Shown here one piece after another: positions 42,883 through 57,495 of a stretch of DNA of 64,000 nt; position 1 is the stretch's first letter; the number at the start of each line of letters is the position of its first letter. Source of the stretch: Streptomyces deccanensis (lineage in GTDB: Bacteria > Actinomycetota > Actinomycetes > Streptomycetales > Streptomycetaceae); NCBI RefSeq assembly GCF_022385335.1, contig NZ_CP092431.1, forward strand, positions 8,742,001 through 8,806,000, in the 5' to 3' direction. Position numbers and translations under genes: made by a program. The notes beneath the pieces were generated by a model. That model was not told the DNA's origin, ran no database searches, and was given only the letters and a program-made list of their open reading frames with translations.

Positions 42883-43872
42883 TCAGAGGGCGGTGAGGTG
42901 CCCCGGTGTCGGGGTGCGCGGGTGGCGCGGTAGCAAGGACGGTTCTGTCGGGGCGTGGTGGGGCTCCAGGGCCAGGACCGCCGCCACGGGGTGGTCCTCG
43001 GGCACGGGGGCGGGACTCACCGGCCGGTCGGGGTCCGTGGGCCGGATCACGGCCTCGGGGGTCACCCGGGTCAGCAGCACCACACCCCGCGCCGCCACCA
43101 CGGCCCCCGCCCCCGCGAGCAGCGCCCCCGCCACCCCACCCCGCAGGCCCTCCCCGAGGAGGGAGAGGCCGATCACGGCGGCGGTCAGCGGGTTCGCCAG
43201 GGTCACGACCGCGAGGGGGGCGCCGAGGCCCCCTTGGTACGCCGTCTGGGAGAGCAGCAGCCCGCCCACGGCGAACGCGGCCACCAGCAGGGCCACCACG
43301 ACGACCTCCACGTCGAGGAGCGACCCCGATCGGTCCGTCGCCGCGACCGTGACGGTCTGGGTGAGCGCGGAGGCGACACCCGAGGTCATGCCCGAGGCAC
43401 CCGCGTGGCGCAGCCCGGGCTTGGCGCCGGGCCGCGACAGCAGTCCGACCAGGGCGACGGTCGCGCCGGCCACGGCGACGGCCTCCGGAAGACTCAGTAC
43501 GTCGTCCGGCGCGGACCCGGACGCGACGACCAGGATCGCGGCGAGACCGGCCAGCGTGAGCGCGGTGCCCCGCCACTCCGTCGAGGTGACCCGGCGCCCC
43601 GCCACCCGCGCCCCGAGCGGCACCGCGGCCACCAGCGTGAGCGCGCCCAGCGGCTGCACGACCGTGAGGGGGCCGTACTTGAGGGCGACGACGTGCAGCA
43701 GCGCGGCGCCCGCGTTGAGCGCGACCGAACTCCACCAGGCGCCGCTGGCGAGCATCCGCCCCACGCCCGAGCCGGCGCTGCGCGAGGCGAGCCGCTCCTG
43801 GGCCACGGCGGCGGCCGCGTAGGCCACGGCGGAGACCAGCGACAGGGCGACGGCGACGAGGGTGGCGTTCAT
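42883..43872 (-). CDS. DMT/EamA-type transporter
   Basis: ATG at 43872 gives 329 residues with about nine or ten hydrophobic segments (VAVALSLVSAVAYAAAAVAQ, PLTVVQPLGALTLVAAVPLG, LAVVTLANPLTAAVIGLSLL and others), the drug/metabolite exporter layout with an internal repeat. The last ~45 residues are a Pro/His/Glu-rich cytosolic tail. Its start overlaps the PAP2 stop by 4 bp, so the two are co-transcribed, probably under the TetR regulator. The cargo is unknown. Confidence 0.82.
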   Translation of the reverse strand: MNATLVAVALSLVSAVAYAAAAVAQERLASRSAGSGVGRMLASGAWWSSVALNAGAALLHVVALKYGPLTVVQPLGALTLVAAVPLGARVAGRRVTSTEWRGTALTLAGLAAILVVASGSAPDDVLSLPEAVAVAGATVALVGLLSRPGAKPGLRHAGASGMTSGVASALTQTVTVAATDRSGSLLDVEVVVVALLVAAFAVGGLLLSQTAYQGGLGAPLAVVTLANPLTAAVIGLSLLGEGLRGGVAGALLAGAGAVVAARGVVLLTRVTPEAVIRPTDPDRPVSPAPVPEDHPVAAVLALEPHHAPTEPSLLPRHPRTPTPGHLTAL

Positions 43873-44669
43873 CGGGCCGCTCCCACCAGGACGGGTTCCT
43901 CGACCGGAACGAGGGTTGCGGAGTTTTGCCCGGCGGCCGTGGCCGTCCGGTGCGGGAGCGGGACCACGGCGAGGACGACGGCCAGCAGCGCGCCCGCCAC
44001 GATCGCGTCCAGCCAGTAGTGGTTCGCGGTGCCGACGATCACCACCAGGGTCACCAGCGGGTGCAGCAGCCACAGCAGGCGCCAACGGGAGCGGGTCGCG
44101 GCGATCAGGCCGACCGCGACCATCAGGGCCCAGCCGAAGTGCAGCGAGGGCATCGCCGCGAACTGGTTCGCCAGCGAGTCGGTCGCCGGCGCCGCCGAAT
44201 ACACCGACGGCCCGTACACCTGCCCGGTGTCGAGGAGGTGCGCGCCGTCCAGCATCCGCGGCGGGGCCAGCGGGAACGCGAGGTGCAGCAGCAGCGCGGC
44301 GGCGGTGAGCGCGGCGAGGACCCGCCGCGCCCAGACGTAGTGCCCGGGGCGCCGCAGGTACAGCCAGACCAGGAAGGCCGCGGTGGCGGGGAAGTGGACG
44401 GTGGCGTAGTAGACGTTCGCGACGTGGATCAGCGTGTCGCCGTGCAGCAGCGCGGCCTGCACGGAACCCTCGCCCGGCAGGCCGAGGGCGCGCTCCCAGC
44501 TCCACACGTCGTGGGCGTTGCGGAAGGCCTCGGCGGTGTGCCCGTTGGCCAGCAGCCGGCCGAACTTGTAGACGAGGAAGAGCCCTGCGACGAGCAGGAA
44601 CTCACGGACGAGGGGCGGCCGCGGTATCGCGGCGGCCGGCTCTCGCGCAGGCGCGGTGCGGCATTCCAT
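43869..44669 (-). CDS. PAP2 superfamily membrane enzyme (AUR1-like)
   Basis: ATG at 44669 gives 266 residues with about six membrane segments. The PAP2 catalytic motifs are AAMPSLHFGWAL (C2 region, His) and ANHYWLDAIVAG (C3, His and Asp), with YATVHFPATAAFLVWLY between. This pattern fits the AUR1-like branch, which includes inositolphosphotransferases and lipid phosphate phosphatases. The 104-residue upstream frame extension runs through the operator array and is rejected. Paired with a DMT exporter and a TetR gene, it may handle a lipid or prenyl phosphate at the membrane. Confidence 0.8.
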   Translation of the reverse strand: MECRTAPAREPAAAIPRPPLVREFLLVAGLFLVYKFGRLLANGHTAEAFRNAHDVWSWERALGLPGEGSVQAALLHGDTLIHVANVYYATVHFPATAAFLVWLYLRRPGHYVWARRVLAALTAAALLLHLAFPLAPPRMLDGAHLLDTGQVYGPSVYSAAPATDSLANQFAAMPSLHFGWALMVAVGLIAATRSRWRLLWLLHPLVTLVVIVGTANHYWLDAIVAGALLAVVLAVVPLPHRTATAAGQNSATLVPVEEPVLVGAAR

Positions 44670-44762
44670 CCCCGGCCCTTTCACTGACGGCGCTGGTGGC
44701 GCTGGTTCCCTTGGCGGCACAAAGATCGACACGACGATCCCCACGACGATCGACACGCCGTA

Positions 44763-44885
44763 GTACCGATACGTGCTGGTACCGATACGAGAGTGTACCG
44801 ATACGTTCCCGTACCGAAACGAGGGGGTATCGATACGCCACTGTACCGATACGGAGCCGTTCCGGTACAGTGGCGTTTCGACAGG
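44763..44885. promoter_or_regulatory. Array of 16-bp-phased operator-like repeats
   Basis: The 11-mer gtaccgatacg or a close variant starts at 44763, 44779, 44795, 44811, 44827, 44843 and 44859, each exactly 16 bp apart; an eighth decayed copy starts at 44875. Four copies are identical and one (gtatcgatac) is a perfect 10-bp palindrome. The five bases between units differ from copy to copy. Weak matches continue left to about 44724. The array lies between the divergent PAP2 (44669) and TetR (44923) starts. A TetR dimer probably binds each unit. Confidence 0.85.
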
Positions 44886-44922
44886 CCTTTCGGCATGGGG
44901 ACGACCGAAGGAGACACGAGTC

Positions 44923-45537
44923 ATGACGTCGCAGGCAGCGGAGGGGCCGGAGACGGCCGCCGCCTCGCGCCGCTCCAAGCTCACGCCCGAGCGCGAGCTG
45001 GAGTTCTTCGACGCTGTGCTCGAACAGATCCGTGAGTGCGGTTACGACTCGGTGACCATGGAGGGCGTCGCCGCGAGCACGCGGTGCAGCAAGTCGACGC
45101 TCTACCGGCAGTGGCGGACGAAGCCGCAGTTCGTGGCGGCCGCGCTGCGCGCGCGCCGCAGTGTCCGCTTCGCGGGGATCGACACCGGCACTCTCGCCGG
45201 CGACCTGCGCGAGGTGGCCAGGCAGGCGGGAGAGGGCTACGTTCTTGAGGGGCGGCTGTTCCAGGCCCTCGGCCATGCCGTCGTGCAGGACGAGGAGTTG
45301 AAGGCGGCCCTGCGTGACGCGCTGGTGGAGCCGGAGATCGACGCGCTGCGGGCGATGATCGCCCGTGGGGTGGCGCGCGGCGAGGTCCCCGCGGACCACC
45401 CGGCGCTGGAGTTCGTCCCGGCGCAGATCTTCGGCGTCCTGCGGGCCCGGCCGGTCCTGGAGGGCCAGGACGCGGACGAGACGTACATCACCAAGTTCAT
45501 GGAGGCGGCCGTGCTGCCGACGCTCGGCCTCTCATAA
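44923..45537 (+). CDS. TetR family transcriptional regulator
   Basis: ATG at 44923 with AAGGAG upstream gives 204 residues. The HTH is at 43-65 (YDSVTMEGVAASTRCSKSTL, then YRQW), the standard TetR N-terminal pattern. The C-terminal helical ligand domain is of the common actinobacterial type (ALRDALVEPEIDALRAMIAR). A GTG-initiated extension from 44773 through the repeat array is rejected. It very likely controls itself and the divergent PAP2/DMT genes through the array. Confidence 0.9.
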   Translation: MTSQAAEGPETAAASRRSKLTPERELEFFDAVLEQIRECGYDSVTMEGVAASTRCSKSTLYRQWRTKPQFVAAALRARRSVRFAGIDTGTLAGDLREVARQAGEGYVLEGRLFQALGHAVVQDEELKAALRDALVEPEIDALRAMIARGVARGEVPADHPALEFVPAQIFGVLRARPVLEGQDADETYITKFMEAAVLPTLGLS

Positions 45538-45876
45538 GGCTCAGGCCGCCGTCCGTGAGTCGACCGGACGACGACCTGATCGCGCCGCACCGTGGGGACG
45601 GGGGCGGCGCGTAACCCCGGCCGGGTGGGATTCCTCTGGAGCGGAGAGGAACCCCACCCGGCCGACTTGTCTGACCGACCTTTTGTGCGGGCCGATCACG
45701 TCGCAGTGCGGGCGGATCGCGTCGCAGTGCTGGCGGATCCAGTGCCGGCCGATCGCGTCGACGGCCGACGGTTCATGCGGGCGGGCGCGGCTGGCCTCAC
45801 GGCCGCCACCGCCTACGGCTGCCGCCGCCCCGAGGCCGCACGCCGCCCCGCCACCGCCCCGCGGCCGCACCCCGCC
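45538..45876. terminator. Convergent gap: long hairpin and 21-bp repeats
   Basis: The gap after TetR and before the DUF2510 stop is 339 bp. Arms 45619-45637 and 45645-45663 form a 19-bp stem with one mismatch and a 7-base loop, a strong bidirectional terminator candidate. Next to it a 21-bp repeat (gatcgcgtcgcagtgctggcg type) starts at 45694 and 45715 with partial copies at 45736 and 45751. No convincing gene is seen. Confidence 0.65.
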
Positions 45877-57399: not shown

Positions 57400-57417
57400 C
57401 GGGTGCCGGGCGTCGCG

Positions 57418-57445
57418 GTGCCGGGTGCCGGGTGCCGGGTGCCGG
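57418..57445. repeat. Four exact copies of a 7-bp tandem repeat after pcaV
   Basis: gtgccgg repeats four times without mismatch, 18 bp after the pcaV stop, inside a wider stretch of related sequence (57400-57470). It could vary in copy number by slippage; no function is apparent. Confidence 0.75.
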
Positions 57446-57495
57446 GCATCGCGGGGCCGGGTGCCGGGCGTCGCGGACACGGCCCGGGCACCCCG

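Follow-up and report, generated by a model that had tools for sequence, protein, structure and literature searches.

TetR-family regulators, which are some of the most common switches in bacteria, are generally depicted with one or two binding sites. A 64,000-nucleotide stretch of the single-contig 10.1-Mb genome of Streptomyces deccanensis (hereafter the window) raises the question of what one such regulator might do with many more, as the gap upstream of its gene houses a long row of palindromes spaced at exactly 16 bp. We asked which bases of this row make up one site, and how the row could act on the genes at either side. The answer that we consider likely, judging from comparison of related loci, is that overlapping operators for the neighbouring TetR protein make up the array, and that this protein would repress both its own gene and the divergent PAP2 gene from a conserved core.

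The regulator, a protein of 204 residues encoded on the forward strand (44923–45537), matches PF00440 (1.6e-08) and PF16859 (TetR_C_11; 2.6e-22), each above its cut-off, and hence contains both the TetR_N helix-turn-helix and the C-terminal domain. It is not a BetI or KstR equivalog, scoring 20.4 bits against the NCBIfam cut-off of 201.3 for BetI and 19.7 against 280 for KstR. We propose that this protein binds the array and represses its own gene. Divergent from it, on the reverse strand, is the gene for a membrane phosphatase-like protein (PAP2_3, PF14378; 43869–44669), the proposed target, the end of which is overlapped by a reverse-strand gene for an EamA/NIPA-like (DMT) membrane protein (42883–43872; matches below curated cut-offs) that would be the second gene of the target operon. 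The TetR and PAP2 genes are separated by 253 bp, within which the whole array lies, and a consensus scan of 44600–45000 found no terminators. Two further repeats occur in the window: a 21-bp tandem repeat downstream of the TetR gene (45685–45754) that ends in a 15-bp repeat, and a dense 7-bp/36-bp tandem repeat of CGGGTGC (57400–57476) that is unrelated to the operator array.

Seven units begin where the original prediction had placed them, at 44763, 44779, 44795, 44811, 44827, 44843, and 44859, on a perfect 16-bp grid, and the copy at 44827 reads as a perfect palindrome (GTATCGATAC). The decayed eighth unit claimed at 44875 is present, with the sequence GTTTCGACAG, but it proves to be a conserved terminal half-site with the consensus GTATCGAT. 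A ninth, left-terminal unit at 44747 (CGATCGACACG) had been overlooked and fits the conserved left end of orthologous arrays. The complete array (44747–44885, unstranded) is composed of nine 16-bp units, the terminal two of which are half-sites, corresponding to eight overlapping proposed operators. Self-identity at a lag of 16 is 0.64 over the 140 bp around the array, a value reached at any lag from 8 to 40 in none of 5000 dinucleotide shuffles. Among the seven units, mean pairwise identity is 0.87 for the 11-bp part and 0.22 for the 5-bp spacers. Immediately to the left (44718–44760) are three GATCGACACGAC-like words spaced 12 bp apart, and one word of this series, ATCGACACG, resembles the array half-site and may be a decaying extension of the array on another period.

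The unusual feature is the array rather than the single 11-mer word: allowing up to two mismatches, 16 such words occur in the window against 13.1 expected, and they are thus not rare. Exact copies of the 11-mers GTACCGATACG and GTATCGATACG are confined to the array across the 10.1-Mb genome. GTAYCGRTACG has 21 matches elsewhere, of which 20 are GTACCGGTACG and one (at 6974876) is GTATCGGTACG, the opposite strand of which contains the 10-mer GTACCGATAC. For a two-unit pattern, the array is the sole match in the genome. A genome-wide regulon was rejected because the exact site occurs nowhere else in the genome.

Conservation among orthologues and distant relatives

The orthologue pool of 138 loci (the best 80 of 138 confirmed in named genomes, the window, and 29 and 28 further loci) consists of the best-scoring loci rather than a random sample, at identities of about 69% or more, and yielded 127 distinct upstream regions after loci with an identical last 200 bp were dropped. 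Among these best 80, the closest TetR relatives in named genomes are all from Streptomyces, the top ones being 97% identical (S. caniscabiei and Streptomyces sp. MNU76). A class-wide sample gave a match at 1e-40 in 26 of 296 genomes, every one of the same genus as the window. At 109 of the 110 orthologous loci checked, the fetched DNA encodes a PAP2 relative, and a DMT relative was found at 105 of the 110. The sole locus missing PAP2, L096, carries the array with neither a PAP2 nor a DMT relative in the fetched DNA, which counts against the proposed explanation.

Alignment of these loci, as the original prediction had suggested, showed that the unit and its 16-bp period are retained across the 127 regions rather than reduced to one site with no period. 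With no phase imposed, unit matches of at least 10/11 number 538, whereas 20 sets shuffled by mononucleotide averaged 4.6. Exactly 16 bp separates 396 of the 411 successive pairs, none is spaced by 15 or 17 bp, and the remaining 15 spacings comprise one of 42, one of 48, and 13 above 200; the view that selection acts on both the sites and their exact spacing is thereby upheld. On the grid, arrays contain 4 units in 5 regions, 5 in 64, 6 in 32, 7 in 8, 8 in 3, 9 in 10, 10 in 2, 11 in 2, and 12 in 1; counted as operators, the runs comprise 3 to 11; a walk along the inner half-sites gives slightly different unit numbers over the same range. Because 125 of the 127 arrays have exactly two units rightward of the left core unit, length varies on the PAP2 side.

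The spread from 4 to 12 units between species, with the longest arrays in one group around S. scabiei, is what might be expected of a recently expanded 16-mer that has no function. The grid, however, is maintained over all 127 regions, the core is nearly invariant, and spacers are unrelated (0.22) while units are not (0.87). On these grounds, we rejected neutral tandem duplication, to which we give almost no credence.

A lower-identity set of 60 further loci was picked by hand from the match lists. All 21 loci at 55–66% identity (L168–L187 and L224), five of which (L181, L182, L183, L187, and L224) belong to another genus of the same family, have a run of 2–7 operators, and 20 of them have a PAP2 relative (the exception is L185). 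Four PAP2-linked loci at 48–51% (L188, L189, L191, and L194) contain three units each; a strict count recovers one operator in three of the four (one half-site being CGAGACG) and a looser match recovers two in all four. L216 (53%) has three operators and a DMT relative with no PAP2 match. The other 34 loci (41–52% identity) have no PAP2 match and no run of more than one operator: one match is present in 15, two or three off the 16-bp grid in 12, and none in 7, with weaker unit matches yielding two 16-bp spacings. At a paralogue in the same genome (C1:4339790-4340386, within locus L243 at C1:4339590-4341386; TetR 40% identical), CGAAAC-type palindromes are situated about 46 bp apart and no 16-bp chain was found.

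For a tree of 91 TetR sequences, we took 35 of the 127 orthologues (roughly one in four, with a few picked in addition) and, after dropping four short proteins, 56 of the 60 other loci. It splits with 100/99 support into 60 rows with operator runs, nearly all PAP2-linked, and 31 rows in which no run exceeds a single operator. Since the tree is rooted at its midpoint, gain and loss of the chain are indistinguishable. The longest arrays (8–11 operators) fall in the group of S. scabiei, S. stelliscabiei, and S. torulosus together with the window. L179, on its own long branch, has a seven-operator array upstream of TetR whose extension seems to have occurred separately from that in the S. scabiei group. 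The two-operator loci L181–L183 and L224 are placed inside the long-array part of the tree, at a position without support; as they nest there, if weakly, array growth would not have been one-way.

Register of the proposed operators

Two dyad axes alternate down the array, one in each unit and one in each spacer. The original prediction adopted the first, with one TetR dimer on each palindromic GTAYCGRTAC and seven to eight dimers side by side. This choice follows what is visible, in that the palindrome is the unit, one copy is perfect, and the spacers vary within the array. Moreover, the unit matches its dyad at 8/10 positions (GTACCGATAC), compared with 6 or 7 of 9 pairs in the proposed operators and 4/9 in the last one; in symmetry, the unit equals or exceeds the proposed operator, which counts against a register centred on the spacers.

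The claim that each palindromic unit is one dimer site is nevertheless unsupported, as the ends of the array, the operators of relatives, and published recognition-helix spacings argue for dimers over the spacers. A row of unit-centred sites would be expected to end in whole units, yet the outer half is lost at the left end of all 127 arrays and at the right end of 125: the left outer GT is intact in no array and the right outer AC in two, among arrays of all lengths between 4 and 12 units, whereas the same letters stand at 99–100% in 251 inner units. The 127 regions are related to each other, and the end counts do not represent 127 independent events. A spacer-centred chain must end in a half-unit, which a unit-centred row need not, and the truncation thus favours the spacer axis. 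Partial conservation is also seen in the bases that stand in place of the lost outer halves (C in 80% at left position 2 and G in 87% at right position 10 over the 127 regions), a pattern for which the operator model gives no explanation.

The second line of evidence is what the terminal units retain. They keep ATCGATACG and GTATCGAT, with A and T flanks at 84–92%, and these half-sites and flanks match the operators found at 29 of the 34 loci without PAP2, where CGAAACG-N4-CGTTTCG occurs at a level of at least 12/14 (raw match count; 14/14 in 19 of them) with A...T flanks in 90% and 86%. The equivalence of the retained ends with the half-site of the relatives' operators argues again for the spacer axis, and the array repeats this geometry about its spacers. 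The five remaining loci without PAP2 (L192 and L219–L222) do not have CGAAACG-N4-CGTTTCG and count against the proposed explanation, as do the 12 loci with two or three matches off the 16-bp grid.

The third argument is one of distance. Half-site centres are 10 bp (∼34 Å) apart if sites are centred on spacers and 5 bp (∼17 Å) apart if centred on units, and the recognition helices of TetR, SimR, QacR, and CprB are 31–38 Å apart according to the accessible part of a structural study (PMC4150764); the spacer-centred distance fits this range. Unit-centred dimers, which we regard as improbable, were rejected on the three lines of evidence together.

Most likely, then, the palindromic unit is the overlap of two neighbouring 22-bp operators, such that n units would accommodate n−1 dimers, eight in the window, with 6 bp common to each neighbouring pair. 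Proposed operator 1, the left terminal one (44749–44770; outer half ATCGACACG), takes its register from the relatives' operators and the array ends. Operators 2 (44765–44786), 3 (44781–44802), 4 (44797–44818), and 5 (44813–44834) follow from the sequence register, as does operator 8 (44861–44882), the right terminal one and the weakest in this genome. For operator 6 (44829–44850), in the conserved core, and operator 7 (44845–44866), at the centre of the conserved dyad, the sequence register is joined by conservation among orthologues.

The recognition helix differs between the two TetR clades at residue 55 (S to C) and residue 58 (A to S). In an alignment made by eye from the residues named in the accessible part of PMC4150764, position 58 coincides with the base-contacting G44 of CprB. 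The change at residue 58 tracks that of the half-site from CGAAACG to CGATACG only loosely, with L012 and L024 (A58 and mostly CGATACG) as exceptions, and a coupling between the two was set aside.

The conserved core and a proposed mechanism

The rightmost four units form a dyad centred at 44855.5, with 25-nt arms that are 88% complementary. Spacers lack conservation, as originally stated, within the array and, between species, at the remaining positions, but two of them are conserved between species, cCAST before 44843 and ASTGG after 44859. These flank the two central units and, together with the unit edges, spell TACAST on both strands. We infer that the mirrored words are the −10 boxes of divergent promoters: TACAGT on the forward strand (44866–44871; columns 23–28) is the candidate for TetR, with TACAST conserved at 98–100% per column in the 127 regions, and its mirror image on the reverse strand (44840–44845; columns −3 to 2) is the candidate for PAP2. 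A consensus scan of 44600–45000 found no sigma-70-like promoters.

The fifth bases of the two boxes (44841/44870, columns −2/27) form a complementary pair, GC in 83 and CG in 38 of the 127 regions. Complementarity in this mirrored column pair is 0.95 against 0.56 expected, and this covariation and the long arms of the dyad are what might be cited for RNA structure, or for sites of another protein such as a partition or nucleoid protein or a recombinase. The covariation is weak, requiring only 5 changes on the tree with at most two independent pairs on starred branches, and was set aside as proof of a symmetric complex or a hairpin. In addition, the array accompanies the TetR clade and this locus, and its operator geometry is common to sites beside related tetR genes. 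That the sites serve another protein or act as RNA structure is accordingly very improbable.

We propose that one TetR dimer would bind the spacer-centred 22-bp pseudo-palindrome A(T/C)CGAWACG-N4-NGTWYCGAT. Such operators would follow every 16 bp with a 6-bp overlap, GTAYCGRTAC being the stretch in which the right half of an operator coincides with the left half of its successor. As 16 bp is about 189° beyond a full turn at 10.5 bp per turn, neighbouring dimers, if bound, would lie on opposite faces of the helix, in keeping with the original prediction, and every second dimer would come back to nearly the same face. The conserved core (the last four units and three operators) would span the back-to-back candidate tetR and PAP2 promoters and repress both. 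TetR would thus silence itself and the PAP2 operon through dimers stacked on alternate faces, with the core as the switch, and a putative ligand would release repression. Operators added on the PAP2 side would stabilise the complex and steepen or tighten repression. Along the conserved chain, numerous repressor molecules would probably stack on the DNA and hold both genes tightly shut. A cooperative oligomer, a sharp switch, or wrapping of the DNA, all put forward in the original prediction, may be how such an array acts.

The extra PAP2-side units could also have a different part to play. Only the core would then be a regulatory operator, and the additional units, which would lie in the PAP2 leader, would either hinder transcription as a roadblock or titrate TetR as a sink. 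In agreement with such a role, array length varies on the side of the PAP2 gene, beyond the putative start of its transcript. The extra units, however, match the core in both grid and sequence, a hint of joint binding, and the promoter positions are ones that we infer. We consider a roadblock or sink rather unlikely, and it overlaps with the preferred chain of operators, modifying it.

An extension of the operator chain that we put forward tentatively, and favour less than its negation, is that TetR dimers alternate between faces in a two-sided, open-ended stack, in effect a short filament with a length dictated by the number of operators. Were this true, the relatives would constitute a natural series from isolated operators to chains of 2, of 3–5, and of up to 11, and the sharpness with which one repressor switches would have been tuned in evolution through gain or loss of overlapping sites, always in steps of 16 bp. 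With 2 to 11 overlapping, phased operators among similar proteins and promoter layouts, the family offers a test of how operator number affects the steepness or tightness of repression, and allows one to ask whether TetR dimers stack along DNA without limit. For phased operator arrays in general, the locus warns that the palindrome one sees may mark where two sites join instead of a site itself.

Comparison with known multi-dimer operators

Known TetR-family complexes, as far as the accessible part of PMC4150764 describes them, contain one dimer, or a pair of dimers on 22–32 bp. Dimer pairs of the latter kind are found for QacR, CgmR, CprB, and Ms6564, with those of CprB on opposite sides of the DNA, and binding of the QacR and CprB pairs is cooperative (PMC4150764). 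The operator overlap and 16-bp phase, both present in its sequence, would place the array with QacR and CprB if the predicted dimers bind on opposite faces. In these four systems, the same portion of that paper describes two dimers only, whereas the orthologues here have a periodic chain of 3–11 operators. Because the paired CprB dimers do not touch (PMC4150764, accessible part), stacking need not mean protein contacts, and cooperation could also act through the DNA.

Mycobacterial EthR likewise places several TetR-family dimers cooperatively on one operator (cited in PMC9210681). As given in the part of that article available, it is an octamer on a 55-bp operator with two direct and two inverted repeats (PMC9210681), as opposed to the exact 16-bp period and variable length here. 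SCO7222 of S. coelicolor is another Streptomyces TetR protein with repeated intergenic operators, giving three gel-shift complexes; the available part of its description reports three palindromes of another sequence and mentions no overlapping chain (PMC3511530). Our literature search, which was thin on subscription journals, found no published TetR operator chain of such regularity or length, nor the motif.

MetJ has an unrelated, ribbon-helix-helix fold. Several of its dimers occupy adjacent short met boxes around the DNA, which makes it, by the accessible part of PMC2775130, the nearest mechanistic likeness outside the TetR fold, although its boxes are 8 bp long and its co-repressor is SAM (PMC2775130). 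Multi-dimer TetR operators are thus already known, and the array described here, as read from its sequence, is longer than the precedents found.
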